A stretch of DNA of 64,000 nt, taken from contig OY987244.1 in NCBI GenBank assembly GCA_963920765.1, forward strand, positions 19,882,358 through 19,946,357. The letters are read 5' to 3'. The notes below the pieces were generated by a model. The model was given only the letters and a program-made list of their open reading frames with translations, had not been told where the DNA came from and did not search any database. Source of the DNA: Ulota crispa. Taxonomy: Eukaryota > Streptophyta > Bryopsida > Orthotrichales > Orthotrichaceae. Below are positions 10,540-61,510 of the stretch, one piece after another. A program made the position numbers and the translations under genes. The first letter of the stretch is position 1. The number at the start of each line of letters is the position of its first letter.

Positions 10540-10830
10540 GCGACACAGGTGTGAGGCTTGGGATCTAAAGGAGGTAGACAAGTGACTTTAGAATGTCTAG
10601 ACATGTATGCTATTGTTCTGTAGTTAGCATGTCCTAAGCGTTGGTGCCAAAGGTACGTGGACCAGGTTTTTTTGTTAACCTCAACACTATTGACAGTCCC
10701 AATGGGTGGGTAAAACCTATACAAACCATTTGCTTTGTTCCAAGATCCTTGTGCCATGAACTGACTGTTCTGAGGTAATTTAAAATTCTAGAGAATGAGG
10801 ACCTGATCTTTATTGAACAAGACATGGGAT
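10540..10830 (-). pseudogene. copia GAG-pre-integrase zinc-binding domain
   Basis: On the minus strand, LWHQRLGHANYRTIAYMSRH followed by HTCVACQVGKQ gives the H-x3-H ... C-x2-C zinc-binding pattern at the start of copia integrases. Upstream the same frame reads SHVLFNKDQVLIL, a stop, and NSQFMAQGSWNKANGLYRF. Confidence 0.8.
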
Positions 10831-16344: not shown

Positions 16345-17279
16345 TTAACCCCTAAAGCACTAAGCTCAAGTTTTCACCAAAATTGCTCCAAAACTGCCAT
16401 TCTAGTACAAGTACCAAATCTTAACAAAAAAACTTTTTTGACAAATGTAACCATAAGATCTTGTACTACACTAGTATCAAAAGATGCAAAAAAAATCAAG
16501 AGTTTTCACATTATAGATTGTTAGATATTTGAATTTGAATTTACAAAAAGCCATTTTTTGTCTCTGCAAAAATCTGAGCAGGTGCACTTCACAAGGTCAT
16601 ATTTTTGTATGAAAAAATTCCAAAGTGGTTGTAGTTTTTTGGATTTATTCTTCAAAGCAAGTTGGGTACACACTTGAAATTTTCAAATCATTTGGAATTG
16701 TAAAATTCATGGAAAAAAAACGGTAAGTAAATAGAAGTAGAGAATGATTCAAACCACTAAATTCTTAAGAACTGGATTATGGAAATGAGAAATTCCAATT
16801 CCAATGGTGATGATGTTGTGATAAACAATCTACATCTTTTGGTTTTTTTTTTGTTTTTGTTCTAAAATATTGAAAATTGAGTAAATTAATGGACTTCAAA
16901 GTTTATTTTAGAGTAGAGAATCCATAACTACCCACAAACAAAATCTCCTCATAACTTTCATCTCATTGATAAACATGAAATGATTCAAAGCTTCCCAAGT
17001 ACATATAAATCTAAAGAACCAATTGCAAAAAACAAAATTCAAACAATGTAATTTTTGAAAAAGTATTTGGACTGCCCTCTGAGCAAAGAAAACTACATAT
17101 CATGCAATAACTTTTGAACCAAGAAGTCAAAAGTTATGAAAATTGTTGGGCCTTAAAGCTACTCCTTGGACATATCATGTGTGAAAATTTCAAAGAAAAA
17201 AAAATGAAAACCTCATTGATAGTGAGTTGCCCAAAATTTCTATGTTGCCAAAAATGAGTGTTCAGGCTTTAGGAGTTAA
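16345..17279 (-). mobile_element. TTAA-flanked MITE, copy A
   Basis: It starts TTAACCCCTAAAGCACTAAG and ends GGCTTTAGGAGTTAA; 935 bp. The interior shares long stretches with copies B, D, E, L, N and O, for example the CTCATAACTTTCATCTCATT block. It has no transposase ORF. Strand is given relative to copy B. Confidence 0.75.
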
Positions 17280-18470
17280 TTCATGTTGATCAAAAAATTT
17301 ACTCCAAAGAGGGCTAAAGCCTATTGACCTTATCAAGTAGCTAGGGACCAAAAAAACTACTTTTCAAACTTTGAACATTATATTGCTTCAATTTTTGCAA
17401 GCAATCAAATGGGCTGAATTTTTTTGCACACATTACATAAATATAGTACTACAGTTTAATATGGTTAAATTTTCAAAAGTAGGTTGCAATATTCATTTTA
17501 CATCAACACACTACAAAAACACAATTTTTGACAATTAGTTTGTGAACACACCCCTTGGGCCTTTGGGCCTTTGGGTCTTTGGGGTCGAACCTGTTCATAC
17601 TTTGACGAGGATTGAAATATGGTTCACCTTGCTGCCGGCCTTCTCTCGGGTTCCTTCTAAATTACACTCCCATGTCAATGCCGATGTTGGCTTTCGTTCT
17701 TGCCCTTGTTTGTTGAGTTTTTCAACACCCAAAAATCTTAAACATTCTGCCCTCTGGATTGTGCTTGGGAAATTTCCCATCCCTGCTAAATGTTAATGCC
17801 CTTCTTTGGAAGTTGCGGTGGAGAACCGGGTGGAGAACTTCCAACCCTGCTGCTGAATAGTGAAATGCTGGCTTCCACTTTGACAAAATGCTTAATAGTA
17901 TTATAACAATGGGGAACATACACACACTAAAGTTATGGGCATGGTGTTCTCAGGCGGAGGTCCTCTATCAAATCTCCACTCGCGTTATCCAGAGCGCCTG
18001 CATTCTGAAAGCACCAAACCTTGAACCCTGCCACATCCCTGTTGCTCAAGGTTTGATGGAGTTTTTTTTAGGTGTAGTGGGTCCCGAGACGGAAGACTTT
18101 TACCATTGCTCTCAGCTCCTTCAACATTGACATGCTCTACCGGTTTCAATGCAACGTTTCAAATGGTCGCGCAAATCGATGGCGTACTTTCGAACCTTCG
18201 AGCGCAACTCCAACCGATAACTTCTACCACCAAACTTTCAAAACACGCAAAGAGTTGTGTTGGCAGAATCCTTGTCCACGCAATTAGGGATTGCACCAGT
18301 GACGTACAGTGCGCTTGCGAATCGATCTCTCTTGCCATATGGACTGAAGCATCTGCTAGCAACAGTTTCTCCTCCATGGCCGTCGTCACTACTCAAACGA
18401 GGTTCGACTTTTTTAGGTAGATCGTTTCTGTGGGCTAGTGTAAATCTCATCGGTGGTTGAGATACAGGCC
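17280..18470. other. upstream region of the 18471 gene
   Basis: A short tandem run of CCTTTGGG units lies at about 17547-17583. From about 17600 the base composition rises toward that of the following gene. Several ORFs overlap on both strands (for example 17888-18130, 18106-18420 and, on minus, 18159-18389). None has a recognisable domain or a clear splice link, and I read this as promoter and 5' leader. Confidence 0.3.
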
Positions 18471-20440: not shown

Positions 20441-21648
20441 AACACCATATTATGTAATCTGGGTAAAAGGGTACTTTTTGGGATTTTTGAAGGTTCTAGG
20501 TGATCATCTAAAATCAAGCTTTAGAATTTTTTTGGTACACGTGCCCTCACCTAAGAGGAGGAATTTGAGAGGGAAAAAATCTTAGTGGCTCAAACTGAAT
20601 TTGACACCTTCAAATCTGGTTTAAGGTAACTCTTTGTTGTTTTTGGGTTTAACCCCTAAAAGCCCATTGTCCCCTCGGGGGACAAATGGGATTTTGGGCA
20701 GGTACCTATGGCTAACCTACTTTGCGTGATTTTCTGAAACTTTTATTCAAGGTGGGGAATGTGAAGACCTAAGTGCGGGTACAATTTTTTCTCCATTCTG
20801 ACAATTATTGAAGAAGTTATGCATGAATAACTGAAAAACAAGGGAGAATTGGGCAGAAAAAAAAATTGCAACTTTTTTAAATAAAATTTTGAAATTGGTT
20901 CTTTAGATTTTTATGTACTTGGGAAGCTTTGAATCATTCAGTTTTGATAGATGAGATGAAAGTTATGAGAAGTTTTAGTTTGCGGGTAGGTATGGGACTC
21001 CCAAACCTCCATTCTTTTTCCCCCTTGTAAAACTTTTTTCTTTACTTTTTTGAGCTCTTTGTGTATTTGATTTTTGACTTTTTTTTGCAAGTTGTAGTAG
21101 ACTAAGATTCCTTAGTTTTCACCATTTGGATCAAAGTAATTTGGGTTTTTGAATTTTACATAAATCCTCTAATTTTGCCTAGTTTATATGCAAATTTCAT
21201 GACCTTACGGCATTGCAAGATTTTACAAAGTATGATCCACATCTTAATTTCATTTGAAAATTCTCCCACACATACCTAACTTGGTCTTCTACATGGAAAA
21301 AATAAACCTCAACTTTGCGTAGAACAATTTTTTTGATATAGGAGCCATCAAAGGCTTTTGAAATTTCTAGGCAACAGTGAAAAAATCATTTTTTTTCACT
21401 TCAGAGGTGAATATCTCACTCCTCACCATCTAGAATGAGCTAACTTTTTTCTTAAATACCTACCATTGTCTAGGGCAAGATCTTACGGTTGGATTTCCAA
21501 AAATAAATAAAAAATTACATTTCTCCTCACTTCCCCAAAAATGGTAGTTTTGAGTGATCTTCACAAAAAAATGGGCTTGGGCTTTTAGGGGTTAAGGTAG
21601 AGTACAAAATGGTACCTCCCTTTTTCCCAGATTACATAATATGGTGTT
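20441..21648. mobile_element. 4-bp-TSD MITE family, copy 1, split by TTAA element B
   Basis: The ends are perfect inverted repeats of at least 23 bp starting AACACCATATTATGTAATCT. GCTC flanks both sides (20437-20440, 21649-21652). Without the nested element the length is about 260 bp, matching copies at 38616-38873, 35402-35677 and 42849-43104. The interior shares GAATTTG(A) and CTCACCTAAGAGGAGGAATT-like blocks with them. Non-coding. Confidence 0.85.
20649..21595 (+). mobile_element. TTAA-flanked MITE, copy B, nested in the AACACC MITE
   Basis: It starts TTAACCCCTAAAAGCCCATT and ends GCTTTTAGGGGTTAA; 947 bp. The host MITE copy at 38616-38873 has the unoccupied site (GGGTTTAAGGTGG on the minus strand, TTAA at 38668-38671). 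Here the same sequence reads GGGTTTAA, element, TTAAGGTAG. This shows directly that TTAA is the duplicated target. A subterminal palindrome TTGTCCCCTCGGGGGACAA sits at 20667-20685. Confidence 0.9.
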
Positions 21649-25110: not shown

Positions 25111-26039
25111 TTAACCCCTAAAGGACCAAGCCCTTTCTTTTTGTGAAAGTCACTCAAAACTGCCACTTTTGGAGGAATGAGTAGAAATGTAGGAAAAAAA
25201 GTTTTTGGAAATCCAACCATAGGATCTAGACTATGGGAGGTACTTGTGGGACAAAAATCAACTCATTCTAGATGTAGAGGAGTGAGATATTGACATATGA
25301 GGGAAAAAAAAGTTTTTTTCCATTCTGTCCAGAAATTTCAAAAGCCTTTGACCTATATAAAAAAAATTCTCTATGCAAAATTGAGGTTTATTTTTTCCAT
25401 GTAGAAGACCAAGTTAGGTATGCGTTGGAGAATTTTCAAATGATTTGGAAGCGTGAATCATACTTTGTAAAATCTTGCAATGCAGCAAAGCCATGAAATT
25501 TGCATATACACTAGGCAAAATTGGAGGATTTATGTAAAATTGAAAAATCTGAGTTACTTTGATCCAAATGGTGAAAACCAAGGAATCTTAGTCTACTACA
25601 ACTTAGAAAAAAAAAAGTCAAAAAACAAATACACAAAGAGCTCAAAAAAGTAAATCACCAAATTTTACAAGTGGCAAAAGGAATGGAGGTTTGGGAGTCC
25701 CATACCTACCTGCAAACTAAAACTTCTCACTCATCAATCAAAATTGAATGATTAAAAGCTTCCCACATATATATAAATCCAAAAAACCAATTTCAGATTT
25801 TTATTTTTAAAATGCAATTTTTTTAATAGTTTTTGGGTTGCTTGCCCTCATTTGTTGTTTAAAAATTCAAGCATAACTTTTCAATAAATGAAAATGAAGA
25901 AAAAATTGGATGGCCAAGCAAATCTTTGAATTCCCCATCTTCCATAAAAGTTTCAAAAAATCACACAAAGTAATTTAGTTGTAAGTACATGCCCAAAATC
26001 CCAACTGCCCCCATGGGCAGTTGGTCTTTTAAGAGTTAA
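25111..26039 (-). mobile_element. TTAA-flanked MITE, copy D
   Basis: It starts TTAACCCCTAAAGGACCAAG and ends CTTTTAAGAGTTAA; 929 bp, inverted relative to copy B. It shares its final TTAA (26036-26039) with the next element F. Confidence 0.85.
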
Positions 26040-26797
26040 AATCTGAGCACCCCATATGCTAGATCCTATCGCTCAGGATTTCACTAGGTGTTTTGGAGGA
26101 CCATATCTAATTTTTTGATTTTGCACTAAACTAGGATTATCAAGGTATTCAAGTGGTCCTTGCAAGTGAAGTAATGGCAAGTCAAGTCAAATGTTGTACA
26201 AGTAACTAGAGAGTCATGATTGCATGGAACACCATATGCGGCCAGGTGGCAAGGAGCATCTTACATGTTGCAATTGGTCAATATCCCTTGCAAACTTCCT
26301 TGCAATGTACTTTGTGGTAGTAAGGAATTCATTGGCAAGGGTTCAAACATGTTCTGGACCTTTTTCAAGGTAATTCTCACCAACTTTGCCGTACATCATT
26401 TTTTGCGCCATTGCGGTTTGAAATCCTCAAACTTAGCATTCAAAGAAGTACAATCTTTGATAATTTGCAAGTGTGTGCATTCACATCTAATCTTGCTACC
26501 CACAATATTTGAGATGAATCAAGGACTTATAGAATTTTGTAAAACTCAATAAATAGCAATTACTTGCCAAAAATTGAGATTTTACCATCACTTGTTGTCC
26601 GATCAAATGTTATAATCTCCCATCTCCCATGGTCAATTATTTCCAAAATTTGCAAGCCCTTTTCCAAGTAGGTATTCCAGTGTTTTCAATGGTCACTTTT
26701 TGTGGATCATCCAATTGACTCAGATATGATATATCAAAGTTGTAGGTCTTTGAAAACCCTTATTTTGGTGAAATAACTCTGGGCGCTCAAGGGTTAA
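26036..26797 (+). mobile_element. TTAA-flanked MITE, subfamily 2, copy F
   Basis: It runs from the TTAA shared with D to CTCAAGGGTTAA; 762 bp. It is the reverse-oriented counterpart of element G (51471-52233): blocks such as CTTGCAAGTGAAGTAATGGC and GTTTTCAATGGTCACTTTTT recur there. It has a different interior from the 0.93-kb copies but the same TTAA habit. Confidence 0.75.
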
Positions 26798-26938: not shown

Positions 26939-27874
26939 TTAACCCCTAACGGACCATTGTCCCTTTGGGGGACAAATGGGATTTTGGGCATGTACCTATG
27001 GCTAAACTACTTTGTACGATTTTCTAAAACTTTTACTGGAGTTGAGGATTTCAAAGATCTACGTAAAAATGTAATCTTTTCTTCATTCTGACATTTATTG
27101 AAGAAGTTATGCATGAAAACCTAGAAAATGCTGCTCCCCGGGCAGCCAAAAACTTCTTTAAAAATTCCATTTTTTTCAAACATTAATCTGAAATAGGTTC
27201 TTTAGACTTATGTGGACGTGGGGAGCTTGGAATCATTCAATTTTGATAGATGAGATGAAAGTTATGAGGAGTTTTGTTTGCGGGCAGTTCTAGATTCTCT
27301 ACTCTAAAATAATCTTTGAAGTCCTTTATTTTACTCAATATTTATTATTTTGGAAAAAAAAAAAAAAAAAAAAAAAACCAAAGGATGTAGATTGTTTATC
27401 ACAACATTACAACTATTGGAATTTGCATTTTTCATTTTAATAATTAAATTCTTAACAATTTAGTGTTTTGACTTATTCTCTACTTCATTTTACTTACTAT
27501 TTTTTCCCATGTGTTGTATAGTTCCAATTGATTTGAAAATTCTCCTACACGTACCTTACTTGGTCTCCTACATGGGAAAAATAAACCTCAACTTTGTGTA
27601 GAGTAATGTTTTTGCTCTAAAAGTGGTCAAAGCCTTGTGAAATTTCTAGGCAGCAGCAAAAAAAAAATCCCGCAATTCATATATAAATATCTCACTCACT
27701 TTTGTGTAGATTGAGCTGATTTTTTTATCATGTGTACCTCTTGTAGTCTATTGTAAGATCTTATAATTCGATTCTTGTAAAAAACTTTTTTTCTTACCAT
27801 TGTACTTGCTACCCAAAAAGTGGCAGTTTTCTGTGTTTTTTACAAAAAAAATGGCTTGGTCCATTAGGGGTTAA
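26939..27874 (+). mobile_element. TTAA-flanked MITE, copy E
   Basis: It starts TTAACCCCTAACGGACCATT and ends CCATTAGGGGTTAA; 936 bp, same orientation as B. A subterminal palindrome near TTGTCCCTTTGGGGGACAA and a poly-A run at about 27354-27377 are internal. Confidence 0.85.
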
Positions 27875-28012
27875 AACCCCATTTGGGCATTAGCTTGGTG
27901 CCTTGGTTTGTAAAGATCTATGTTTCTCTTACTGCATGTAGACCTTTTGTGAGATTTCAAATGAATTGTTTTTCTTGATCTTATTTATCATTGATCATAA
28001 TTCCTAAACCCT

Positions 28013-28828
28013 AATTTGTTCCTCATTCCGACAATTATTGAAGAAGTTACGCAAGCATTTCTAAAAATTTGGGGAGGACTGCCCGCCTAGGCAGCCCAAA
28101 ACCTTCTTAAATTTTTTTTTTAAAAATTAAGTTTTGAAATTGGTTTTTTAGATTTTTTAATAGGTGAGAAGTTTTGAATCATTCAATTTCAATCAATGAG
28201 ATCAAAGTTATGAGGAGTTTTTGTTTGCAGGCAGTTATGGGTTCTCTACTCTAAAATAAACTTTGAAGTCCTTTATTTTACTCAATTTTCAATATTTTGG
28301 AAAAATAAAATAAAACAAAAGGAAGTAGATTGTTTATCACAACATTTTGACCATTAGGATTTGCAATTTTCATTTTAATAATTAAATTCTTAACAATTGA
28401 GTGATTTGACTCATTCTCTACTTTTTTTTACTTGCTGATTTTTCCCATGTGTTGTGTAGTTCCAATTGATTTGAAAATTCTCCCACACATAGCTAACTTG
28501 ATCTTGTACATGGGGAAAATAAAGCGCAAAGTTGCATAGAGCAATTATTTTCATGTAAGAATGGTCAAAGGCTTCTAAAATTTTGCAGCAACATGAAAAA
28601 AAACTTTTCTTTTCACTTTAGATGTATCTCACTCATCTCCATCTAGAATGACCTGATTTTTTTCCAAAAGTACCTAATCTAGTGTAGGACAAGATCCTAT
28701 GGTTGAATTTCTCAAATTAAAAATATAAAAAATATAAAAAATATAAAAAATATAAAATAAAACTACATTCTTACTAATCCCCCAAGAGTGATTTTCACTG
28801 AAAAAACGGCTCAGTCCTTTAGGGTTAA
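28013..28828 (+). mobile_element. TTAA-flanked MITE, copy Q, left end missing
   Basis: It matches copy L from the TCCTCATTCTGACAATTATT block onward and ends TCCTTTAGGGTTAA, but the first about 110 bp including the left terminus are replaced by unrelated DNA. It holds an AAATATAA microsatellite at about 28723-28757. Confidence 0.7.
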
Positions 28829-30647
28829 GGTAAGAATTTTGGAATGAGATTAGATGAATCAGGTTTGTTATAAATTCTCAAACAAGAATATCAAAAATGA
28901 GCTGTGAAAATCGCACTACTACGTGAATCAACAAGTTAAAATCCAAATTATGAATACAAATCAAATTAAAGCTAAAGAATTATAGTCTTTATAACGCTAA
29001 AGGTTTAACTACTTAGCATTGGGATCTAAGGCTCATCAAATGACAAAGAAAAATGTGAAATTTGGAGTTAATTTCTTTTCAAGCATTTGAAATATTACAA
29101 TGATTGACCATATCATCGTATAGGTGTGCTTTCAAAGAGCTTTAGACATAATTTTTTAAAGGTTAAATGTTTTGATGCAAAGATTATAAGTTTGGATTAT
29201 GTAAATGATGGGCAATCATTCATTATCCTATGGCTTTAGATAGGGGAATGCTATTTCATGAGTGGGCATCTGTGAGCCAGATTTTTTTCAAAATATTCAA
29301 TTTCACCTATAATTGTGTACATAGGGTCTTATAATTGTACATTTAAACTTTTATTTTTTGATAAAATTGTTTTTTATTAGATTTTCCACTGAATCTGAGA
29401 TCAATCTTAGCTCATCGCTCCCAAGCTTACCATTCTATGCTTACAAAATAACTTTGTCTAGCTTTAGAATGTCTCTAGACATTCTAGTTTTTTTTTCCCT
29501 CTAATAAGTCATGTGAGGCACTTGTTATGATCAATGACATTTACAAAGTTAATAAAAGACAATAGGAAATAATAAATCTTATGGTGTATTGCTTGGAATG
29601 ACAATATAACATGATATATAGAAACCAAAAGTGTAAAAATGAGTATTGTGAAAAATTAAAGTTTTGACATAATTTTGTTAACAATGAATCATAAATTTAT
29701 GATTTTATTAGTGCGAATTTTGTTGATTGAGTAATTATGTGTAAATGGCGTTATATACATGCAAACCTACATTCAAAACTGTGCAAATAATGAAAACCAC
29801 CATGCAAGCTCAAAATTTGCACGTTGGCCCCTTTGAAGGATACAATTGCTATTGATTTAAAACTCACTTCTCATTTGTTATACCAAGATGGTTGCATTTA
29901 GCGTCATTCATTAAAAGTGTCATAGAATGATGGAAAGTATGTTGCAAAGTGTCATTTTGAATTTCATAGAAATTCATAAAAATTTCTTAACAAAGTTTAA
30001 GGTGGAAGCACCCATTGCCAACAACGTCTCATTTCTAACTAGTAGGGTGTGTTATTTCCACCATGAGCAAGGATAGGTGCTTTGGAATATGTTTTTCTGC
30101 CTTTTTCAAGGTTGGGGTTACTTAAGTCATGCCACATGTCCAAGTGAGGTAGGAAGTAATGAGCTACAAGTAGTTTGGCTAGTATCAGAATTACATACAT
30201 TTAGGCATTGGCAATGGGTGTGGAACAACTTTTGACTCCCAAAATTCACAGTAATTTTAGATTTGCAAATAAAAATTTGAAAAATTTGCAATCCCAATAT
30301 TTCTTATCTTCCTACATGGGAAAATATTTTTTGCCTCAAACTCTTTATAGTTTTCTGCAGAATCACTTAAGTTATTAGATATGGGTGCTGCCACCTTATT
30401 GAGTGGTTGTTCACAAGCTAACATCCAATTTGCCCTTGCTCCCTTTGAAAGTAAAAGTGCCTGCTTATGTTCATGCAGTTTGCTTTTCTTTGTAATGAAA
30501 TCAAATGTTTTAGTTTTTTTAAACAAAAATTTATCTTCTAAGATTTATTTAGTAAAAAATTTTGTATCATTATGTACAGCTACAAAGTCACATCTTCATT
30601 GAAAAAAAAATCCATAAGAAAAATGTACGATCTTTCAATAAACCAAC
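28829..30647. other. intergenic, AT-rich
   Basis: No convincing ORF. A short inverted pair, CACCCATTGCCAA, lies at about 30008-30020 and 30207-30219 and could mark a degraded small TIR element. Otherwise nothing is seen. Confidence 0.3.
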
Positions 30648-32169: not shown

Positions 32170-33050
32170 TTAACCTCTAAAGTTCTTTGTGTTTACATGG
32201 TCAAATGGCTCAAAATTGACCTCTCTCAATAAAATGATTAGTAAATTAAAATTTTGAGTTTTTTTTCAATAATTTAACCATAAGATCTATCTTGTCATTT
32301 TTTTATGGATATCCTCTCAAAAATTTAAACTTTAAGAGGGCATATTTCATTAGATTATAACACTCAAAGTAGGGGCAAAACTTTTTTTGAAGCTTCTCTT
32401 AGGTGTCAATTTTTTTTGGTTATTCACACTGATATCTTCCACTTTCTAAATTTCTTATGCAATTTAACTTTATTGTAGAGCATGAAGTTAGCTATATGCC
32501 TCACAAATTTCATGATCACCCAATGCTTAAAACATAATGGAAAAAAAATGGAATTAGGAACTGCTATGTTCAAATAGTCATTACATTAAGAAAACTTCAC
32601 TAAAGACTCTTATAGAGATAAATCTTGATTACAAAATTGATGCGGCATAAACCTAGAACATCATGTGTGATGTGGAGTACTTGCCAAAGTAATTTTTTTA
32701 AAAATAAAAAGTAAAGTAGAAGTTATTACATAGTCAAGGAGAGTTGATTACAAATTTTGCCCATTGACTAAGCCATTGTAAAGTGCTTTTGAACACTATT
32801 TGGACAACACCCTCAATCCCTTTGTTTCTGAATTTTTTTGAGGATGCTCATGTTGACATCTAAATCACATTTGGTACCAAATCTCACTCAAAATTTATTT
32901 AATTTTGCTTTTTTTTAGGAAATAAGCAAGCTTTTTAATATGAGCACATACACCCTTATTTTCACAATCTTATCTTTTATGTTTACTTGTGAAATGCTTG
33001 CCCAAATATCTCAAAAGCCCAAAGTGGGCTCCTTGGTCCTTTAGGGGTAA
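32170..33050 (-). mobile_element. TTAA-flanked MITE, copy P, diverged
   Basis: It starts TTAACCTCTAAAG and ends TCCTTTAGGGGTAA (one T lost from the right TTAA); 881 bp. The interior is only weakly similar to copies D and A, so it is an old copy or another subfamily. Confidence 0.6.
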
Positions 33051-33219
33051 CTTATTTGTATTTTTATTTTTATTTTTTTCATCATATACAAAATTTAAGT
33101 TAAAAAACCTTAGAAAATTTTGATGACCCTTGTAGTGTATGGGCCGAATGGACGTGTGGAGCGGGGCTGGAGAAGTGCAGAAGTGCAGATCTAGGGTCTA
33201 TTTACCTTCAAGACTTGTA

Positions 33220-35397: not shown

Positions 35398-35401
35398 GAA
35401 A

Positions 35402-35677
35402 AACGCCATATTCATTAAATTGCAAAAACCATATTCCCAAGTTGTACTTCACCTAAAATCCAATGTTTTTCTTTATGGCGTTTAAATGCCAAATTCAAAA
35501 GTATCAAATTTGGTATGAGCCATTGAGATTTTGTCCCTTGCAAATTCCTCCTCTTAGGTGAGGGCACTTTTACCAAAAAAATGCTACCTAAACCTAGAGC
35601 TTGGTTTAAGGTGATCACCTTAAACCTAATTTATTCCCAAAATCGGGGTTTCTTCCCAAATTAATGAATATGACATT
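35402..35677. mobile_element. 4-bp-TSD MITE family, copy 2
   Basis: The ends AACGCCATATTCATTAAATT and, inverted, AATGTCATATTCATTAA are flanked on both sides by GAAA (35398-35401, 35678-35681). Length is 276 bp. The CTCCTCTTAGGTGAGGGCAC block is shared with the other copies. Non-coding. Confidence 0.8.
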
Positions 35678-38337: not shown

Positions 38338-39472
38338 TACTATGGCCTCCAAGGTAGTTTTGTTCACCCTGTTTTACCCTTCAAAAAATTTGGTATTTTA
38401 TAAAATAAAATTAGCATTTTAAAATCTTGTACCATTATATTTTAATTCTTACTCAATTCCAATCAAGCATACCATATTTTGAATTTCAAAAAACCAAAAT
38501 CCTATTTTTGGTGAATTGTTTTACATAATGTTTGTGGTTTTACATGATAAATGATTAAAAAAAATCGGTAATGAATTTTTGAGAATTGATTGCATGGATG
38601 CATAGGAAAAATCCAAACACCATATTAGGTAAATTGGGAAAAATGGAGGTACCATTTGTACTCCACCTTAAACCCAAAAAGTTACTTTTAATCAAATTCA
38701 AAGGTATCAGATTTAGTTTGAGCCACTAAGATTTTTTCCCTCACAAATTCATCCTCTTAGGTGAGGCCATGTGTACCAAACAAAAACAATGAAGCTCAAT
38801 TTGAAGTGATCACCTCAAACCTTCATAAGTCCCAAAATGTACTCTTTTTCCCAATTTACCTAATATGGTGGATTCCACACACACAACTTTTCTTCTAACA
38901 AGCATCTCCAAAAAAATCATAATTCCTTTTGTTTAGATTTTATTGATGAAGTGATTACAACCAAATCTTGTAAATTAGGTATTTCTTCATGGTAATCAGC
39001 TTTTTTTGTTCAACTTATACTACATAATTGGGTTGAATCTTTGAGCATAATGATACGGTTATTTTGCCAAAAACTAGTTAAAACTACATAATTATTTATT
39101 TTACAAAATTTGATCATGATCATTCCAACATTAAAATTTACATAGAAGGAATTATATATTTTTTGAGTTGCTTGTTAGAAGAAAAGATGTGTGTGTAGAT
39201 GTTTCCTATGCATTCATGCAATCAAATCTCAAAAATTCATTACCAATTTTTTTTAATCATTTATCATGTAAAACCACAAATATTATGTAAAACAATTCAC
39301 CAAAAATAGGATTTTGGTTTTCTGAAATTCAAAATATGGTATGCTTGATTGGGATTGAGTAAGAATTAAAATATAATGGTACAAGATTTTAAAATGCTAA
39401 CTTTATTTTATAAAATACCAAATTTTTGAAGGGTAAATGAGGGTGAACAAAACTACCTTGGAGGCCATAGTA
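38338..39472. mobile_element. long inverted-repeat (foldback) element
   Basis: The left arm (38338-38615 plus about 38874-38937) and right arm (about 39144-39472) are inverted copies, from TACTATGGCCTCCAAGG at the outer tips to AATTCCTTtT-like sequence inside, around a loop of about 200 bp. The left arm is split by the MITE at 38616-38873; the right arm preserves the unsplit sequence (GGAAACATCTACACACAC on the minus strand). No coding content. Such arms would make a hairpin RNA if transcribed. Confidence 0.8.
38616..38873. mobile_element. 4-bp-TSD MITE family, copy 3 (unoccupied by TTAA element)
   Basis: The ends AACACCATATTAGGTAAATT and ACCTAATATGGTGGAT are flanked by TCCA (38612-38615, 38874-38877). 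About 258 bp. It carries the unoccupied TTAA (38668-38671) at the site where the copy at 20441-21648 received element B. It is inserted in the left arm of the long inverted-repeat element. Confidence 0.85.
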
Positions 39473-42258: not shown

Positions 42259-43480
42259 TTAACCAATAATGACTCAAGCCCTTTTTTGTGTGAAAGTTAC
42301 TCAAAACTGCTACTTTTGGGGAATGAGTAGAAAGGTAGGAAAATTTGTTTTTTTGGGAAATCCAACCATGATAGGATCTTGCCCTATATTATGGAAGGTA
42401 CTTGTATGAAAAAAATACATCTCATTCTAAATGTAAAGGAATGAGATATTGACAACAAAAGTGATTTTTTTTTTTTTTTTTTTTTTTTGTTGCCCAAAAA
42501 TTTCAAAAGCCTCTGACAACTCCTATATTAAAAAAATTGCTCTACCCAAAGTTGAGGTTTTTTTTCCCATGTAGAAGACCAAGTTAGGTATGCGTGGGAG
42601 AATTTTCCAATGAATTGGAGGTGTAAATCATACTTTGTAAAATCTTGCAATGTCATAAGGCCATGAAATTTGTATATACACTAGGCAAAATTGAAGGATT
42701 TATGTAAAATTCAATCATTTGAGTTATTACGATCCAAATGGCAAAAACCATGGACATTTAGTCTACTACAACTTGGAAAAAAAAGGTCAAAAAACAAATA
42801 CACAAATTGCTCAAAAAAGTAAAGCACCAAATTTTACAAGGGGCAAAAAACGCATTATTCGTTAAATTGGGAAAAACAGAGGTACCATTTTGTACTCCAC
42901 CGAAAACCCAAAAAGTCACCTTAAACTAAATTTGAAGGTATCAAATTCAATTTGAGCCACTAAGATTTTTTCCTTCACAAATTCCTTCTCTCAAGTGAGG
43001 GCACGTGTACAAAAAAAAATGCTGTGAGCTCCATTTCAGGTTCACCTGAAACCTTTAGAAGTCCCAAAATGTACCATTTTTCCCAATTTAACAAATAACG
43101 AGTTGAAAGGAATGGAGGTTTGGGAGTCCTTTACCTACCCGCAAACTAAAACTTCTCATAACTTTTAGCTCATCAATGAAAAATGAATGATTCAAAACTT
43201 CCCACATATACATAAAACCTAAAAAACCAATTTCAGATTTTTATTTTAAAAAATGCAATTTTTTTTTTGTGGGCTGCTTGTCCTAGCTTGTTGTTCAAAA
43301 ATTCATGCATACTTTTTTCAATAAATGTTGAATTGAAGAAAAAATCAGATGCCCTCACACATTTTTGAATTCCCTATCTTCCATAAAAGTTTCAAAAAAA
43401 CACACAAAATAGTTTAGCTCTAAGTACATGCCCAAAACCCCACTTGACCCCGAGGGACCACTTGGACCTTTAGGGGTTAA
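42259..43480 (-). mobile_element. TTAA-flanked MITE, copy N, split by the AACACC-family MITE
   Basis: It starts TTAACCAATAATGACTCAAG and ends GGACCTTTAGGGGTTAA. Net length is about 966 bp after removing 42849-43104. It closely follows copy D, which has the unsplit junction GGCAAAAGGAATGG. Confidence 0.85.
42849..43104. mobile_element. 4-bp-TSD MITE family, copy 4, nested in TTAA element N
   Basis: The ends AACGCATTATTCGTTAAATT and, inverted, AACTCGTTATTTGTTAAATT are flanked by AAAA (left) and GAAA (right). About 256 bp. The TTAA used by element B in copy 1 has decayed to TTCG here (minus strand). Confidence 0.8.
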
Positions 43481-51470: not shown

Positions 51471-52233
51471 TTAACCCATAAAGGCCCAAGCCAATTTCAC
51501 CAAAAATCAAGGTTTTAGGAGACTTATAACTTTGATGCCCACAAAAAGTGACCATTGAAAACAGTAGAACACCTACTTAGAAAATGGCTTGCAAATTTTG
51601 GGAACACTTGACTATGGGAGATGACTAATTTGGAGGCAATTGACAATGGGAGACGGGAGATTATAATATTTGGTTAAATAACATGTAATGGCAAAATCTC
51701 ATTTTTTGGTAAGTAGTTGCTATTCATTGATTTTAACAAAATTCTAAAAACGTTTGATTTAGCTCAAAAATAATTGAATAGCAATGTTAGATGTGAATGC
51801 ACAAACTTGCAAATTATTGAAGATTTTGCTTCTTTGTGTGTTAAGTTATAGGACTTCAAACCACTACTGCACGGAAAACAATGATCAACACAATTGGTGA
51901 GGGTTGCTTTGACAAGGGTTTAGAACATGCTTGACCCCTTGCTGGTGAATTTTCCGCTACCACAAAGCACATGTAAGGAAGCTTGCAATGAGTACCAACC
52001 AGTTGTAACTTGTAAGACATTGCTTGCCACCACAAATCCATATGGTATTTCACCCAATTAAGGTACTTGATGCACTTGTATAACATTTAGTTTGCCTTGC
52101 CATTACTCCACTTGCATGGACCACATGAATACCTTTAATTTATAACAAGGTCAAAAAATTAGATCCAATACCTCAAACATGGTGTGAAATCATGTGAGGA
52201 CCATTTTGGTCCTCTGGGGCATTCAAGAGTTAA
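51471..52233 (-). mobile_element. TTAA-flanked MITE, subfamily 2, copy G
   Basis: It starts TTAACCCATAAAGGCCCAAG and ends CATTCAAGAGTTAA; 763 bp. It is the partner of element F in inverse orientation. Its right TTAA (52230-52233) is also the left TTAA of element H. Confidence 0.8.
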
Positions 52234-52460
52234 CCCTTAAACGTTTGAGCAGCTTGTAGTAAGCAAAAAATACAATCTTGTATTTGGAATGCATCCACAC
52301 TTTTACTATATTTGAAATCAACAAAGAAATTAGAATATATCAATGCTATACTAGTGAGGTATTCAAGATCCCAAATTAAAACTTTTTGTTGGTAGCAAAT
52401 GCTAGTTATATCGCAGCGTACATACCATGTCCTATGGTTGCTTGGTCGTTTAAGGGTTAA
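52230..52460. mobile_element. TTAA-flanked mini-MITE H, 231 bp
   Basis: The ends TTAACCCTTAAACG and CGTTTAAGGGTTAA are perfect inverted repeats. It is the shortest of the TTAA elements, inserted immediately at the TTAA that ends G. Confidence 0.8.
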
Positions 52461-52608
52461 GGACAAACACGCAACTATTCTACCAAGGTTCAACAAAAAT
52501 TTATCCTAATTAGTCAGAACTTGTATTGTTGCAACCAAAACAACAAACATATAAAGTAAAATATAAAAACAATTAACATGGATGGATGGATGGATTGATT
52601 GCTGCATA

Positions 52609-52914
52609 AGATAGGAGCACCCCATAAGCGTTAGTATTCCCATAACTGTCACTTCTAAAAAATTTGAAAAATATATGAAAATAAATAAATGTAATTACAA
52701 GGATGTACAACATGTGAACATGAAACTTTAGTGTTGATTATGGGTGCAATGGCAGTTTGCTCTTTAAAATTCACAGCTTATTCTCACAGTATCCAAATAA
52801 TAAATTCAAAAATGCAAACTCATTATTTTTCTGTTGCTAATAGAAGAATAAGTTATTTATTAATAGTCATCATGTTCAAAACCCTTAATTTGACATTTAT
52901 GGGTGCTCCTACCT
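52609..52914. mobile_element. TA-flanked MITE (AGGTAGGAG family), copy 3
   Basis: The ends AGATAGGAGCACCC and GGGTGCTCCTACCT are flanked by TA (52607-52608, 52915-52916); 306 bp. It is longer than copy 2 but homologous. Confidence 0.75.
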
Positions 52915-53223
52915 TAGTAGCAGGGATGCAGGTTGGCTATGCGTTACGGTGTGGAGCACAGTCGAAGGACGGGGTAGAAATCCCGGGTTGAGTAGGTTAC
53001 TGTTTTTTTTGTTTGTTTTTGATTTTGTGTTTTTTTGTTTGTTTTTTCGCTTTCCCAAGACCAACGTGCACAGAGAACGAACGATGGAGATTGGAGGGGA
53101 GCGAGTCAGTCAGAGGACTGACGCACAGTGAAATGATTATTGATTATTTGGTGGAGTGTGCGCGGAGATCTTGAGTTTCTTCGGCAAAAATCCTACATTA
53201 CTCATTTTTAAACCGGTTGTTTT

Positions 53224-53609
53224 TTAATCCCTACACGTCCATGAGGACGAAAAATGTCCTTTCAGTGCCAGCGAAGCATCCAGAGGATGGAAAAACAAGT
53301 TTTTTTCAAAAGAATTTTTTCTGAAAGTGGTCAGGGTAATGTGCTCAATCTCTGAATGCCAAGAATTGTTGCTTTGCATGTCCCCATATTTGTTTCAACT
53401 TCAATTTATGATGAGATGTAGATATCTTGTGCTGCCTTATGCTGCCCTTCCTACAATTTTCGTGAGGGCAGTATTGACTTTTGCACATTTGGGGAGAATA
53501 TTGACCTTTATGGGCACATGTCACACTGCTATAGAGGTATTGAATAGTGAATTCCCATGAGCTATGCCTTGGTTCATGCACGGTCACCCGTGAGTCCTTT
53601 AAGGGTTAA
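53224..53609. mobile_element. TTAA-flanked MITE I, 386 bp
   Basis: It starts TTAATCCCTACACGTCC and ends GTCCTTTAAGGGTTAA. Only the ends resemble the other TTAA elements; the interior is different, so it is a separate subfamily. Confidence 0.6.
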
Positions 53610-53653: not shown

Positions 53654-55335
53654 TTAATCCCTAAAGGCCCAATGGTCTCCTCGGGGGACAAATGAATTTG
53701 GGTATGTACCTATAGCTAAACTACTTTGTGTGATTCTTTTTGAAATTTTTATTGAAGGTGGGGAATTCCAAGACCTATGCGTGCATTTAGTTTTTTTCAT
53801 TTTGACATTTGATAAAGAAATTATCAAGAATTTTCTGAAACTAGGTGAGAAGGGGCAATTTGGGCAGGGTCTCTTCTTTGTAAGTGCGTGTTGACTCCAA
53901 AGAGGGTCAGCCCTTGTGGGCACAAGGTGTGGACACTTGTGCAAAGGGGAATGGAGTGAAAGGTGCTCATCTTGGGGGATTCCCAAACCTCCATTTCTTT
54001 AGCCCCTTGTAAAATTTAGTGCTTTAATTATTTGAGTGTTTGAGTATTTGTTTTTCTGTTTTTTATTTTTTCCCAATTTGTAGTAGTAGGCTAAGAATCC
54101 TTGGTTTTCACCATTTTGATTAACCCCTCTAGGCCCAAGCAACGTTTTTTGGCATTCTAGCAATTTTGGGTTGGTCACTAAAAAAAAAATTAAACCTTCA
54201 CACATGAAGTACCCAAGGAGTGGCTTTAAGGCCCAATAATTTTCATGACTTTTGACTATGTACATGGTTCAAAAGTTACTGCATGTTCTGTTGTTTTCTT
54301 TACTCATCAGGGCAACCAGGGCAGCTCAAAAACTTTTTTTAAAACTACATTTCAAGTCTTGTTTTTTTTAATTGGTTCTTTAGATCTATATATAGGTGGG
54401 AAGTGTTGAATCATTCAATTTCTGTTAATGAGATGAAAGTTATGAGAAGTTTTAGTTTGCGGGTAGGTATAGTTTTGAGAGACTCCACACCTACCCCAAA
54501 ACTAAAACTTCTCATAACTTTCATCTCATTAATGGAAACTGAATGATTCAAAGCTTCTCACATATATTCTGATCTAAAAAATCAATTATAAAAAACCAAA
54601 CTTGAAATATAAATTTTAAAGAAGTTTTTGAGCTGCCCAGGCTGACAAGTAAAGAAAACAACATATCATGCAGTAACATTTGAACCATGTAGTCAAAAGT
54701 CATGAAAATTATTGGGTCTTAAAGCTACTCTTTGGGTACTTCATGTGTGAAATTTTAAAAAGAACTAAAAAAAACAAAAAAATCTAATGCAAAACCCATT
54801 TGTAATAACCTACCCAAAATTGCTAGAAAGCCAAAAAAAAGGTTGCTTGGGCCTTGAGGGGTTAATGTAGCTTGAATTTTTGAATTCTACATAAAGCCTC
54901 CAATTTTGCCTAATGGATTTGCAAATTTCTTGACCTTTGGGTATTCAAAGATTTTTTGAAGTATGTGGTATACCTCTACTTGATCCAAAAATTCTCTAAC
55001 ATACATTAAACTTGGTCTTGTAAATGGAGAAAATCAACCTCAACTTTGTGTAGAGCAATTTTTTGCTATAAGAGTGGTCTAAGGCTTCTGAAATTTTTGA
55101 AGAACATGAATTTTTTTTTTTAAAAACTTGTCATTTTAGATGTCAATATCTCACTCCTCTACTTCGTGAACAAGCTAATTTTTTCCCACAAGTACCTTCA
55201 CAGTCTAGTAGGGCAAGATCCTATGATTGGATATTCAAAAAATACTTTTTTTCCTACTTTTCTACTCAATCTCCCAAAAGTGATAGTATTCTTTGACTTT
55301 TACAAAAAAAACGGGCTTGGACCCTTAGGGGTTAA
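53654..55335 (+). mobile_element. TTAA-flanked MITE, copy J, split by element K
   Basis: It starts TTAATCCCTAAAGGCCCAAT and ends GGACCCTTAGGGGTTAA. Net length is 936 bp after removing K and one TTAA, equal to copies A, B, D and E. The break falls inside a block (CACCATTTtGAT ... TTTTTGAATTcTACATAAA) that is continuous in copy B. Confidence 0.88.
54120..54865. mobile_element. TTAA-flanked palindromic MITE K, nested in J
   Basis: It starts TTAACCCCTCTAGGCCCAAG and ends GGGCCTTGAGGGGTTAA; 746 bp. It is an almost full-length inverted repeat: arms of about 355 bp (54120-54475 and 54490-54865) meet at a short loop near 54476-54489. TTAA stands on both sides within J. The right arm is also similar to the right half of copy A. 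Confidence 0.88.
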
Positions 55336-55890: not shown

Positions 55891-57335
55891 GAGAGTTGCT
55901 AAATCCACCACACTTTTTGCTAAATCCATCACAGTATCTCACCACGGGGTCCTGCACTGTTCAAGGGCAGCTCAAGCAATTTACCACAATGGGGTGAATT
56001 TTAGATATTTACTATCAACAAGGTGATTTGGAAAGTTTGAATTCAAATTTGGACAAAGGTCTTCAATTAGTCTAGAACCTTAAAAGAGGTTACAATTGAA
56101 CAATGCCCAATGGATAAGCTTAGCTAGGGGGCAAATTATTACTTACCCTTCTTTTTAACCCCTAAAGGACCATTGTCCCTTTGGGGGACAGGTGGGAGTT
56201 TGGGCATGTACTTTTGGATAAGCTATTTTGTGTAATTTTTTGAAACTTTTATTGAAGATGGGGAATTCAAAGATCTAAGTGGGCATCTAATTTTTTCCTC
56301 ATTCTGACAATTATTGAAGAAGTTACGCAAGAATTTCTGAAAATTTGGGCAAACTGCCTACTTGGGTAGCCCAAAAACTTCTTTAAAATTCAAATTTTTT
56401 TAAAATTAAAATTTGAAATTGGTTCTTTAGGTTTTTTAATAGGTGAGAAGCTTTGAATCATTCAATTTCAATCAATGAGATCAAAGTTATGAGGAGTTTT
56501 TGTTTGTGGGCATATGGATTCTCTACATTAAAATAAACTTTGAAGTCCTTCATTTTACTCAATTTTTAATATTTTTGAAAAATAATTAAACCAAAGGAAG
56601 TAGATTGTTTATTACAACATTATCACTGTTGGGATTAGCATTTTTCATTTCCATAATTAAATTCTTAACAATTTTGTGTTTTGACTCATTCTCTACTTGT
56701 TATTTACTTACTATTTTTTCCCAAGTGTTGTATAGTTCCAATTGATTTGAAAATTCTCCGACACATAGCTAACTTGATCTCCTACATGGGAAAAATAAAG
56801 TGGAAAGTTGCATAGAGCAAATTTTTTGTTATAAGAGTGGTCAAAGGCTTCTGAAATTTTAGGGCAGCATGGAAAAAAACTTTTCTTTTCACTTTAGATA
56901 TAAATATCTCACTCATCTCCATCTGGAATGACTTGATTTTTTTTTCCACAAGTACCTAATCCAATTTAGGGCAAGATCTTACAATTGGATTTCCCAAAAT
57001 TTAAAAAAAAAAAAAACCTTCTTATTGACCCCCCCAAAAGTGATAGTTTTGAGTGATTTTCATTGAAAAAATGGCTCGGTCCTTTATGGGTTAAAGAAGC
57101 TAAGCTTTTCCATTGGGCATTGTTCAATTATAACCTCCTTTAAGGTTCTTAATTAAAAGCAAGATCTTTAAATCCAAATTTGAATACAAACTTTCCAAAT
57201 TCAACTTGTTGATAGTAAATATTTAAAATTCACCCCACTGTGGTAAATTGTTTGAGCTGCCCTTGAATAGTGCAAAACCCCATGGTGAGATACTGTGGTG
57301 GATTTAACAAAAAGCGTGGTGGATTTAGCAATTCC
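55891..57335. mobile_element. Mutator-like foldback element, copy 3, host of TTAA element L
   Basis: Long inverted arms (about 55896-56130 and 57095-57331) start TTGCTAAATCCACCAC. The flanks TTAAAAATA (55882-55890) and CTAAAAATA (57336-57344) match at 8 of 9. Both arms carry CCCAATGGA(T/A)AAGCTTAGC near the centre. The loop is occupied by element L. Confidence 0.75.
56155..57094 (+). mobile_element. TTAA-flanked MITE, copy L
   Basis: It starts TTAACCCCTAAAGGACCATT and ends TCCTTTATGGGTTAA; 940 bp, closely similar to E and Q. It lies in the loop of the foldback element at 55891-57335. Confidence 0.88.
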
Positions 57336-57344: not shown

Positions 57345-57957
57345 CATTAAGACAATGGGAGAAAGCGGGGCTGGAAACGGGGAGGAGGGAATTCAAAGAC
57401 TGTGGAGTAAATAATAAGATTCAGGATTCCACCCAGGATTGCAAAAATAGGCTGCCCCAGCAGGCAAAAAATCTCTTCAGTGCTAATAGGTCGGGAATCA
57501 TTTTACAGGTTATTAATATTCATGAATCCAGTGTGAGACGGTGGCAGTATGGAGTATGGAACCCCTGACCTGCGGGCCTTGGCATAACATTGCTAAGCAG
57601 GCAAGTTCGTTCCCCACCCAGGTTGTGGAATATACCTCCCGAGATACCTGGGGGGGCAATTGAGTTATAACAGGGCCATGTGAGTGGCTGGGCTTTCCCT
57701 GTGGGAAGTAAATTCGATGTTGGGCTAGGGTGCCGAAGTTTCAGGAGCGAGTGTACATGGGGACTGAGTTACAACAAAGTAAAACTGTAGCACAAGGGGG
57801 CTCCTACTTATGGGGGAGCAAAAGGGAGCCCTCCAGCATTGATAAACAATGTTGTGGGTTTCTGCGTCCAAGCTGCTTGTTCCGCATTGGAAGTGCACAT
57901 GAAAAAGAATCTTAACTTAGCAAAGAAGAGACTGAGGGAGAGGTGTTTTAACCCCTA
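57345..57957. other. intergenic, unique-looking
   Basis: GC-richer than its flanks (many CCTGGG/GGGGG runs). The short ORF at 57730-57915 has no recognisable features, and no repeat copy is found elsewhere in the window. Confidence 0.3.
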
Positions 57958-58859
57958 AAGGACCACGTAATGTTTTCATCAAAAATTCTCCAAAACTGTC
58001 ATTTTTAGAGCATCAACCAAATTTGAAAACAAAGACATTTTTATGTATATGTGACTGTAGGATCTTGTAGAATAATAGTTTTAGAAGATGTGGAAAAATT
58101 TTGAAGTTTTCCACCACGTGGATTGGAAGATAGAAGAGTTTGAATATTCGAAAACATCTTGTAGAAATCCAGGTAGCTGCCCTTCAGAATGTGAAATTCC
58201 TAAGGAAAAAGGCCGTGTGGGTGGTGCTTCTTTAGATTCCTTATTTTGGCTAAGTAGGGTACATGTCAAGGGTACATGTCAAAAAAATTTCAAATCATTT
58301 GGAATTATACAATATCTGGGAAAAAAATAGTAAGTGAAAAGAAATAGAGAATGACTCAAAACACCAAATTGATGAAAATTTAATTATGGATTAGAAAAAT
58401 GCCTGTCCCAATGGTCATAATGTTGTAATAAACAATCTACATCCTTTGGTTTTGTTTTTTTTCCAAAATAATGAAAACTGAGTAAAACAAAGGACTTCAA
58501 AGTTTATTTTAGAGTAGAGGATCCATAACTGCTTGCAAACAAAAACTCCTCATAACTTTCATCTCATTGATTAAAATGAAAAGATTTAAAGCTTCCCACA
58601 TCCACATAAATCTTCTAATCCATTTTTGAATTTTTGTTTTTGAAAAAAGAAATTTTTAAATCTGCCCAAACTACCCACCGAGTGAAAAAACAACATATTA
58701 GGCCATAACATTTTACTCATAATTCCAAATACCATGAAATCTACCTTGTTCTCACATTCTATTAAAATTTTAGCTTAAAACATGAAAAGCTCCAATCACA
58801 GGTACTTGCCCAAAATCACTATCTTGCTAAAAAGGGGGATATGGTCCTTTAGGGGTTAA
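57958..58859 (-). mobile_element. TTAA-flanked MITE, copy O
   Basis: It starts TTAACCCCTAAAGGACCACG and ends GGTCCTTTAGGGGTTAA; 902 bp, the cleanest pair of termini in the family. The interior resembles A and inverted E. Confidence 0.88.
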
Positions 58860-61510
58860 GAAAGCAACCGTGGGGAAAGGTAGGAGACAAGGAAGGAAGC
58901 AGAAACCCACCACTCAAATTAATCAACAAAGGGTATTCCCCAATTTTTGCCTTTCCACATCACATCATCTCTCCAATCTGTGGCGCACCCAAATTGGTGT
59001 TGCTATTGACTTGCACTCAGATTGTGCCCTTTGCCCCACTGCCCAAGAAGGTTTTGCATCAAGAAGTGTACTTATATTTACATATCTAATAATGCCGCTG
59101 GATAAGTAAGCAAGCGCAAGGTTCTCTAGTGAAGGTCCAATCTCACCAGATTGTCAAACGCACTTTGGTGAGGGAGGTTTTGTCCTGTTTGTTGACGTGG
59201 GTCCACAAAAGTGGCCTCAAGATGCATCCTTCAAACGCCTGAGAGAATGCGTCAAAGAAAAACATTCTCTCAAATGATGCATTTTTGCATTTTTAGCAAC
59301 TAATGGGATGATGCCAGGTGACCTCAAAAGATGGGAGTAATCAAATGAGACCTTCTAAGTGGTGGGGTTCTAAAACTTTTTTGTGCTTTTAGTTTTATGA
59401 TTTTTTATTCATGTTTATTCCTTTGATGTTTACTACCAATGAGAATGAAATTTTTGGTAACATCCTAAACTATGTTCATTACAGACAAATCAGTCAGTGA
59501 ACATGCCAATGAGAATATGGCATGAGCCGTGGAGACCCTCCATTGTCAACATCTTATTGATTGCTTTCCAGAGGAGACATAGGCCCAAATGTTAGAAAAC
59601 ATGTGTACCAATGCAGGATTTGCATTTGAGATATATACAGTATGGCACTTCCATAGTGAATCCATATGGCATTATTCCTTGCTGCAAATACCCTCCCCCG
59701 CCCCCCTCAGCTACAATCAAGTTCCATGGCATTTGCATTTAATGCATTGCCGCAACAATTCTGCTTTTGCTAGTATGTTTTTTCATTTTTAGCCCCTTCT
59801 ACCCCTTCCCAATTTTTTTCTAGTTTATTAAAGAGAAAGAGAGAGAGAGCAAGCTAGCGAGATGGGCAAATTGGCAAATTGTAGCGTTCTTGAGAGGAGA
59901 CGGACCGTACAATGGCATTGCTACAATGGAGGTGAGTATTCTCTCTCTCCTTGCCGGCACCATAGTCATAGCCATTCCCATCCCCCCCCCAACCTTCCAA
60001 CATACAAGCAAACCCACCACGTCACGACTACAAGCGCATCTCCACCGCCTCATTGTACGTCACCTAGGACATACACTTACTAGGGTACTAAACGTAGAAC
60101 AGTGGCCCTACTACCATTTCCATAGTATTGACTCAGTGAAATTTTTCCATTGTCACTCCCCACCTTTTAGCTGCAAGTTTCAATCTTTAATTATAAGATG
60201 GTTTTTTATATTGCTAAGAGCCACATGACTTGTCATGCAAGCAAACGCAAGTAAAGCTTGGTATGTAGGACAAGACTTGTAACCGCACATAGGGCAAAAT
60301 AGATGTCTCTCTACATGCTATGAAGTGTCATTAGAGGATAAATGAGCTCAAGAGAAGGTCCTCAAGGAAGGTGACTAGAGGGGTCAAAAGCATTTAAATG
60401 TAATGTCCTTTTTCAAATTAAAAGAGACAAATGCCCTATATCCGCTTGCAACTTATGATGTAGCACTTCGTGAGGATATTTCGTTTCACAATATTATACT
60501 CTTTTTGTTTGATGAGTGTCCTTGTTTGATTGGCAATTATAATTGTAGTTTATTCTTGTGTCCCACTAGAGGTTCTTACATTAGTGATTGTCATGTTATA
60601 ATATTGCTTTGCATCATCAAATCCTTTTGTCATGCAGCATGGTATATTTAAGTACTTCACACAAGGTAAAGACCCTTGTGTAGGTATTTTACCCATGTTT
60701 CTCCTACCTCAATAAATATAGTTGTGTGTCAAGATTGGGAGGCCTTCTCTTGAGCTTATTTTTCCTCTAATATAGAAGTGAAAGGGCTTATTTTGTCATG
60801 CAATAATTGGTCCATGTTTTGCAAAATTGATCCATGTTACAAATTTTGCAATTTCAAAAACAATAGAATATGGCCTCTTTTTTCTTTTAACTTTCCTTTA
60901 TTCATTTTCTACCTCATGATTTAGAGGATCAAAATGTGTTGTTGCTTTTGCACAAGTCATCTTTGCTCTTTGTTGGTTACTTTTTTGTCTTTTTTGTTTC
61001 ATGTATTGCTTACTATAATTGCTTCTTAGTACTGTACTATTGAGACCAAGCCTTTTTTTGTGTGATTTGTATAGGTCTCGGGGAGTGCACTCCTCGTTTT
61101 CTTTTGGTACACGTGCAATCAATGAAGGGTTATTTTAATTACCTTGGTCTTAAATTTTTTACATGGCTTGGAAATAAAGAAGCTACACTTTAATAGGCTT
61201 TGGGTCTTTATAAGTAATGAAAGGTAGTGTTTATTAATTAGTATTACATATTTTTTAGTTCTACAATAGGGTTGTTAAAATAAGAAATACTAAACCAATA
61301 CTTTTCCTAGCTATAGGTCTAGGTTTTTTTTCATGCTTATTACTCTTGCAGGTATCTGAAGCAAGATCCAATGCCCTATGTTAAGCAGCTTCTTTATGGT
61401 AATTTATGGCAATCAGGACATGCCATGTGTTGTTCAAGCATGCGGTTTAGAGATACAGTATTGGGGTAAGATGGGAATTAATTGACGCAAGCTTTATTGT
61501 TCAAGGGTTA
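58860..61510. other. intergenic, no gene recognised
   Basis: A few ORFs of 60-112 codons (for example 59890-60228) lack domain features. 59272-59395 resembles 40365-40490. TATAGGTCTCGGGGAGTGCA at 61070-61089 has an inverted partner at 62182-62200. Confidence 0.3.

Follow-up and report, generated by a model that had tools for sequence, protein, structure and literature searches.

TTAA-flanked elements in a bryophyte-like plant genome share their ends with piggyBac transposase-bearing elements

Element B, an insertion in the 64,000-nucleotide stretch of DNA analysed here (the window), is almost certainly a non-autonomous piggyBac element, as are six further elements of the window and, with weaker homology, a seventh. 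All of them were presumably moved in trans by a transposase encoded in elements of 8.4-8.8 kb. The insertions are specific for TTAA with a 4 bp duplication, the ends are common to the short and the transposase-bearing elements, and the transposases are of the piggyBac type, with the three catalytic aspartates present in most copies.

Element B interrupts a MITE, sister copies of which lie uninterrupted in the same window (all coordinates without a contig or locus name are those of the window):

20441..21648, + strand: host MITE copy carrying element B, the filled site
20649..21595, + strand: element B, 947 bp when both TTAA are counted, assigned as a non-autonomous piggyBac element
20649..20652, + strand: TTAA target-site duplication, left of element B
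21592..21595, + strand: TTAA target-site duplication, right of element B
38616..38873, - strand: sister copy of the MITE lacking element B, empty site GGGTTTAAGG
42848..43097, - strand: sister MITE copy without the element, nested in element 42255-43480
35401..35672, - strand: sister MITE copy without the element, more diverged

When the flanks of element B were joined with a single TTAA, the resulting sequence (...TTTTTGGGTTTAAGGTAGAGTAC) could be aligned from end to end with 38616-38873 in reverse complement (...TTTTTGGGTTTAAGGTGGAGTAC), and the junction read GGGTTTAAGGTAG as compared with GGGTTTAAGGTGG in that copy. The filled/empty pair described in the first-pass annotation is therefore real: in silico excision down to a single TTAA regenerates a MITE alignable with four insert-free sisters, namely, the three in the window and one at L029:6786-7044. 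The motif TTTAAGG is found at the junction in two of these four sisters, and the other two differ there. The copy at 42848-43097, which belongs to the MITE family interrupted by element B, itself lies inside the piggyBac element 42255-43480, so that each of the two families has inserted into the other.

Matches to the sequence TTAACCCCTAAAGG with at most two mismatches number 22 in the window, compared with 0.87 expected, and this count was reached in none of 100 shuffles. From these matches combined with homology, we delimited 13 elements including element B, four of them in nested pairs, with a median length of 935 bp. TTAA is present on both sides of 11 of the 13, the exceptions being 28009-28829, which has lost its left end, and 32170-33051, with the right flank GTAA. 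The elements other than element B are:

16345..17279, no strand assigned: TTAA element with tips CCCCTAAAGC/CTCCTAAAGC, of a subfamily that has no long stretch of homology with the transposase-bearing elements
25111..26043, - strand: non-autonomous piggyBac element by homology, element B family; true right TTAA at about 26036-26039
26939..27874, + strand: non-autonomous piggyBac element by homology, element B family
28009..28829, + strand: element B family, left end lost
32170..33051, no strand assigned: diverged TTAA element, right flank GTAA
42255..43480, - strand: element B family, holding the MITE copy; its true left TTAA lies at about 42259
51471..53609, no strand assigned: TTAA element of another subfamily, holding 52230-52460
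52230..52460, no strand assigned: nested TTAA element, 231 bp
53654..55335, + strand: element B family, holding 54120-54865
54120..54865, no strand assigned: nested TTAA element, 746 bp
56155..57094, + strand: non-autonomous piggyBac element by homology, element B family
57948..58861, no strand assigned: TTAA element with weak terminal homology to the transposase-bearing element Ea; true end at 58859

Together, the 13 elements cover 12,355 of the 64,000 bases (19.3%), in agreement with the earlier figure of roughly 12 kb. That numerous TTAA elements surround element B also holds, but we count 12 of them rather than about 14, and the tip CCCCTAAAGG that most were said to share is common to them only if one or two mismatches are allowed, given that just five of the 22 matches are exact. 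The longer terminal sequence CCCCTAAAGGACCA occurs exactly at both ends of 57948-58859 and with 1-2 mismatches at other ends. The ends are asymmetric because this sequence is followed by the palindrome TTGTCCCCTCGGGGGACAA at the left and by a different sequence at the right. The motif CCCT lies one base in from the tip, in accord with the terminal inverted repeats of 12-19 bp with a CC[C/T]T terminal motif that are ascribed to piggyBac in a passage of PMC2872659.

The window further contains fragments of a MYB-type gene, with at least two exons (48268-49670, - strand), a GAG-pre-integrase retrotransposon fragment (10185-10787, - strand) and a 455-residue open frame (18444-19811, + strand) for which there was no Pfam match at E 0.001. 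Elsewhere in the genome, the PsaA/PsaB profile has, besides the plastid contig C157, which encodes PsaA, 46 more matches on contigs C1-C10, the stronger of which are evidently nuclear copies of plastid DNA. Among solved structures, the plastid PsaA matches 6l35 and 8htu best (1642 bits), followed by 9lut (1610 bits), with the remaining matches listed at 1572 bits or less; 6l35 is from the moss Physcomitrium, and the group near 1570 bits is from seed plants. Ten contigs of 16-41 Mb and C11, of at least 5 Mb, would agree with the n = 11 of many mosses. The host is thus likely to be a bryophyte, probably a moss.

The assembly-wide search for these ends that the first-pass annotation had called for covered the 157 contigs of the genome (274.8 Mb). 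The 14-mer TTAACCCCTAAAGG was found in exact form 15,411 times (7,719 + 7,692) compared with a single occurrence (1 + 0) of the reversed control, and the bare tip CCCCTAAAGG 18,843 times compared with 213 for its control, so that an intact TTAA precedes 82% of the tips. With at most two mismatches allowed, TTAACCCCTAAAGG yields 69,740 matches versus 3,339 for the control, an excess of 66,401 ends. This excess translates, as a rough inference, into about 33,000 elements that occupy about 31 Mb, or about 11% of the genome, on the assumption of two ends and about 0.93 kb per element, a length taken from one window only, and with some of the matches representing related tips and decayed ends being missed.

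The genome also encodes many piggyBac transposases. A profile search with the piggyBac DDE domain (PF13843), another step proposed in the first-pass annotation, gave at least 120 matches (best E 1.3e-73; of 527 first-look candidates, 116 were scored), three of which we link below to the ends of element B; none of 14 control genomes yielded a match. A 199-residue piece of one transposase copy, used as the query, produced at least 151 genome matches with 150 of 375 candidates scored, some loci being represented by two pieces. The stop-free 476-residue frame of locus L032, which belongs to another lineage, matches the solved structures of piggyBac (PDB 6x67, E 4.1e-20) and piggyBat (9c0f, E 5.8e-17) and, among 3,308 candidates from a large protein collection, 16 proteins, all with PF13843 and none with an informative name. 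In the 20 best domains (L009-L028), the three aspartates, which were placed by motif and which we take to be the catalytic residues of piggyBac transposase, are kept in 18, 13 and 18 copies, respectively; the second is lost in seven domains, and six of these seven losses are replacements of Asp by Asn. Thus, PF13843 transposases with the three aspartates that characterize the piggyBac superfamily are present in this genome. A cysteine-rich C-terminus, likewise a feature of piggyBac, is readable by eye in two copies, L030 and the element on C9 described below.

Pairwise identity among the 20 domains ranges from 27 to 81% (190 pairs), and 19 of the 20 contain one or more in-frame stops. This combination of wide divergence and stops implies that many old lineages coexist, most of them decaying. 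The stops in these loci are often TAG or TGA and, together with the replacements of Asp by Asn, form the pattern that methylated DNA decaying by C-to-T changes would show. A palindromic foldback repeat of about 410 bp (window 30648-31058) has copies in or beside the transposase loci L012, L022, L035 and L037. In L030, a TACA microsatellite of about 600 bp (4870-5460) lies between the piggyBac transposase and a right-type end; we set aside this locus as a full-length element (417-6437) because 417-1342 more likely represents a separate 926 bp element.

With 36 piggyBac proteins or domains as queries, tblastn gave no hit in the window at E 1e-3, whereas each of the 26 transposase loci L009-L034 was detected with them. 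This result bears out the earlier statement that the donor is absent from the window. Among the matches listed, the transposase match nearest to the window, at C3:20178200, is weak (E 9e-17) and lies about 232 kb away.

None of the 20 loci with the best transposase domains has TTAACCCCTAAAGG with at most two mismatches within 1.5 kb of the domain, which is explained by the length of the elements, which proved to be 5-9 kb, and the first six 8 kb loci examined around transposases represent mainly other lineages with other tips. In longer stretches, however, a right end was located at a similar distance downstream of the transposase in L035, L036, L046 and L047, and a left end farther upstream in L035, L036 and L047. 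Three transposase-bearing elements were delimited:

C5:24506226-24515054, 8,829 bp: transposase domain E 5.7e-63, 5,981 bp from the left tip and 1,705 bp from the right tip
C4:11551256-11559689, 8,434 bp: transposase domain E 6.1e-60, 5,489 bp from the left tip and 1,799 bp from the right tip
C9:12440860-12449389, 8,530 bp: transposase domain E 6.7e-63, 5,649 bp from the left tip and 1,756 bp from the right tip

These elements contain transposase relics between TTAACCCCTAAA tips and are mutually 65-72% identical over the catalytic region; all three transposases have in-frame stops, and the copies found include no intact transposase of this lineage. Exact tips are common in this genome, at about one per 18 kb, so that a tip close to a transposase carries little weight on its own. 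What links the two is the similar spacing between tips and domain, along with subterminal homology of the left and right types in the right order. Element B has 177-209 bp in common with the three large elements at the left end (75-89% identity) and 453-537 bp at the right end (76-83%, best E 4.4e-131), where the match to the C9 element ends 44 bp short of the tip, and both matches have the correct order and orientation. Both ends of the window elements starting at 25111, 26939, 28009, 42255, 53654 and 56155 match the large elements over more than 65 bp, and the element at 57948 matches over 57-60 bp at each end, with E of about 1e-4. Given that the ends of element B recur on three elements that encode a piggyBac transposase, element B and its kin are to be considered non-autonomous piggyBac elements. 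Of the two kinds of TTAA-specific transposase proposed in the first-pass annotation, it is piggyBac that is supported by elements with matching ends and PF13843 transposases.

The regions common to the large elements extend from about 0.7 to 2.2 kb (the conserved region) and from about 4.8 to 7.7 kb (the catalytic region). The frame near 1.1-2.1 kb resembles, by eye, the N-terminal part that precedes the catalytic region in L030, and we accordingly dropped its interpretation as a second gene in favor of an upstream exon. This resemblance suggests that the transposase gene of the large elements is probably split by a long intron. In addition, a block of about 440 bp in the window (60329-60771) matches, at 72-75% identity, a block that lies after the upstream coding region and before the catalytic one in all three large elements (Ea 4893-5335, Eb 2870-3305 and Ec 4771-5177); the window block could be a remnant of such an element or a different repeat.

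Not all TTAA elements of the window are tied to the three large elements. Those at 16345 and 51471 match them over 40 bp only, the one at 54120 over 33 bp at one end only, and those at 32170 and 52230 have no match among the matches listed; with 33-40 bp at most in common, these five may have been moved by a different piggyBac lineage. A broader version of this explanation, in which several piggyBac lineages moved different subfamilies of ends and the direct parent of element B itself was another, now lost lineage, is conceivable although rather unlikely. It would accord with the great diversity of the transposases and with the distinct TTAA-flanked tips of other lineages, namely L029 (863-5889, CCCCTCATCGCCAA), to which L018 is 90% identical in an alignment that ends at the TTAA of L029, L034 (620-6273, CCCCTCAACACCCC/TCCCTCAACGCCCC) and L037 (1967-7712, CCCCTAAATGCCTAA), as well as with the middle of element B (about 210-415), which is matched by none of the three large elements. 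However, the match at the right end of element B to the sampled lineage is longer than cross-mobilisation would need. In any case, the involvement of multiple lineages is compatible with the assignment to the piggyBac superfamily. Kolobok and Sola3 are other superfamilies that duplicate TTAA, and the duplication alone would fit such a transposase; nevertheless, the ends common to PF13843-encoding elements over up to 537 bp make it very improbable that either superfamily moves these elements, and Kolobok is not needed to explain them.

The length of the duplication has to be established independently because, TTAA being palindromic, a single filled/empty pair does not separate a TA duplication from a TTAA duplication. 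Genome-wide, the ends in which a single flank base is altered number 654, 679, 449 and 595 for positions 1 (the outermost) to 4, which is 2.9-4.4% of the 15,411 intact ends per position. The variation at the outer T/A that the first-pass annotation had named as evidence against TTAA does not stand out: the outermost base is no freer than the inner ones, as fits a decaying 4 bp duplication rather than TA or TWA with free outer bases. We further compared the flanks of element pairs on contig C1, using the listed variant ends (92, 100, 72 and 84 for positions 1-4, with position 2 covered up to 37.0 Mb of C1 and the other positions extending into C2) and defining pairs as inward-facing ends less than 2 kb apart with a changed flank at both. 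Among the 18 such pairs, nine carry the identical 4-mer, CTAA, TTAG, GTAA or TTAT, as a direct repeat, compared with a mean of 3.4 when the right flanks were shuffled among the pairs (p about 0.0009); two others are symmetric, two, with one left end in common, are changed at the same position to a different base, and five are unrelated. Identical non-TTAA 4-mers on both sides imply that the duplication is 4 bp, as in the piggyBac superfamily, and not the 2 bp TA of Tc1/mariner or the 3 bp TWA of PIF/Harbinger, neither of which emerged from the C1 pairs. CTAA, TTAG and GTAA are also described, in a passage of PMC10813416, as rare target duplications of piggyBac in animals. That the elements are of the Tc1/mariner type, duplicate TA, prefer TTAA by chance and have tips starting with ACCCC, with which the single filled/empty pair would be compatible, is hardly credible given the whole duplicated 4-mers, the unexceptional outer flank base and the piggyBac identity of the linked transposase.

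The piggyBac reading translates into a simple model of mobilisation. Under this model, the transposase of the 8.4-8.8 kb elements would recognise the terminal repeat, about CCCCTAAAGGACCA, and presumably also the asymmetric subterminal sequence, that is, the left palindrome TTGTCCCCTCGGGGGACAA and, at the right, about CCAAGCCATTTTTT. It would then excise the element and insert it at a TTAA, leaving TTAA on both sides, and would act in trans on the non-autonomous copies. Trichoplusia ni piggyBac is excised seamlessly via a hairpin intermediate, and by analogy, the same route may apply here.

The piggyBac family is best known from animals and is a workhorse of animal genetics. The elements described here resemble the piggyBac superfamily, as represented by Trichoplusia ni piggyBac (6x67) and piggyBat (9c0f), in the TTAA duplication, the short C-rich tips, the PF13843 transposase with three aspartates and a C-terminal cysteine-rich region, and the asymmetric subterminal sequence. 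They differ from both in the bryophyte-like plant host, the element size of 8.4-8.8 kb, the tip CCCCTAAAGGACCA, the very large number of non-autonomous copies and a conserved coding part situated about 2.7-3.2 kb upstream of the catalytic region. A parallel comes from coral CMITEs, described in part of PMC2872659 as TTAA MITEs with an empty/filled allele pair, for which piggyBac-like elements in the same genome are held responsible; that host is an animal, and in the present case long terminal homology connects both ends to copies that bear a transposase. In plants, angiosperm MITEs have been filed as PiggyBac from TIR and TSD (PMC10004981), and these are also non-autonomous, but a transposase partner is named here and not in the passage concerned. 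Repeat tables give 1,230 PiggyBac fragments, or 0.00% of the assembly, for C-fern (PMC6890710) and one PiggyBac entry for Stipa (PMC8319324).

The first-pass annotation had considered such transposases not typical of land plants. The introduction of a beetle study, which speaks of piggyBac as occasional in plants, for example in red algae (PMC12732532), is in line with that view, whereas plants are counted as hosts in passages of PMC8086355 and PMC10813416. In the literature searched, which included few subscription journals and was screened by title, opening of the abstract and term counts, we found no report of native piggyBac in a moss or of a piggyBac expansion in bryophytes. Two apparent candidates were discarded: in the passage of a moss genome paper (PMC10619864), the word is "piggybacking", and in that of a Physcomitrella paper (PMC5505980), the insect transposon is discussed as a tool.

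Thus, TTAA elements driven by piggyBac are a known kind, and the host, the scale and the diversity are what is new here. Whether piggyBac is a dominant, long-term resident of this bryophyte lineage, as the many deep lineages, the intron-bearing genes and the derivatives that make up about one-tenth of the genome would have it, is in our judgment evenly balanced. If true, this would be a major radiation of piggyBac in land plants that has so far gone largely unrecognised. A genome with an estimated 33,000 piggyBac-derived copies and at least 151 transposase matches would be a natural record of piggyBac in plant chromatin, and piggyBac derivatives could account for some of the unclassified plant repeats. 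The finding also opens the question of when and how piggyBac entered land plants.
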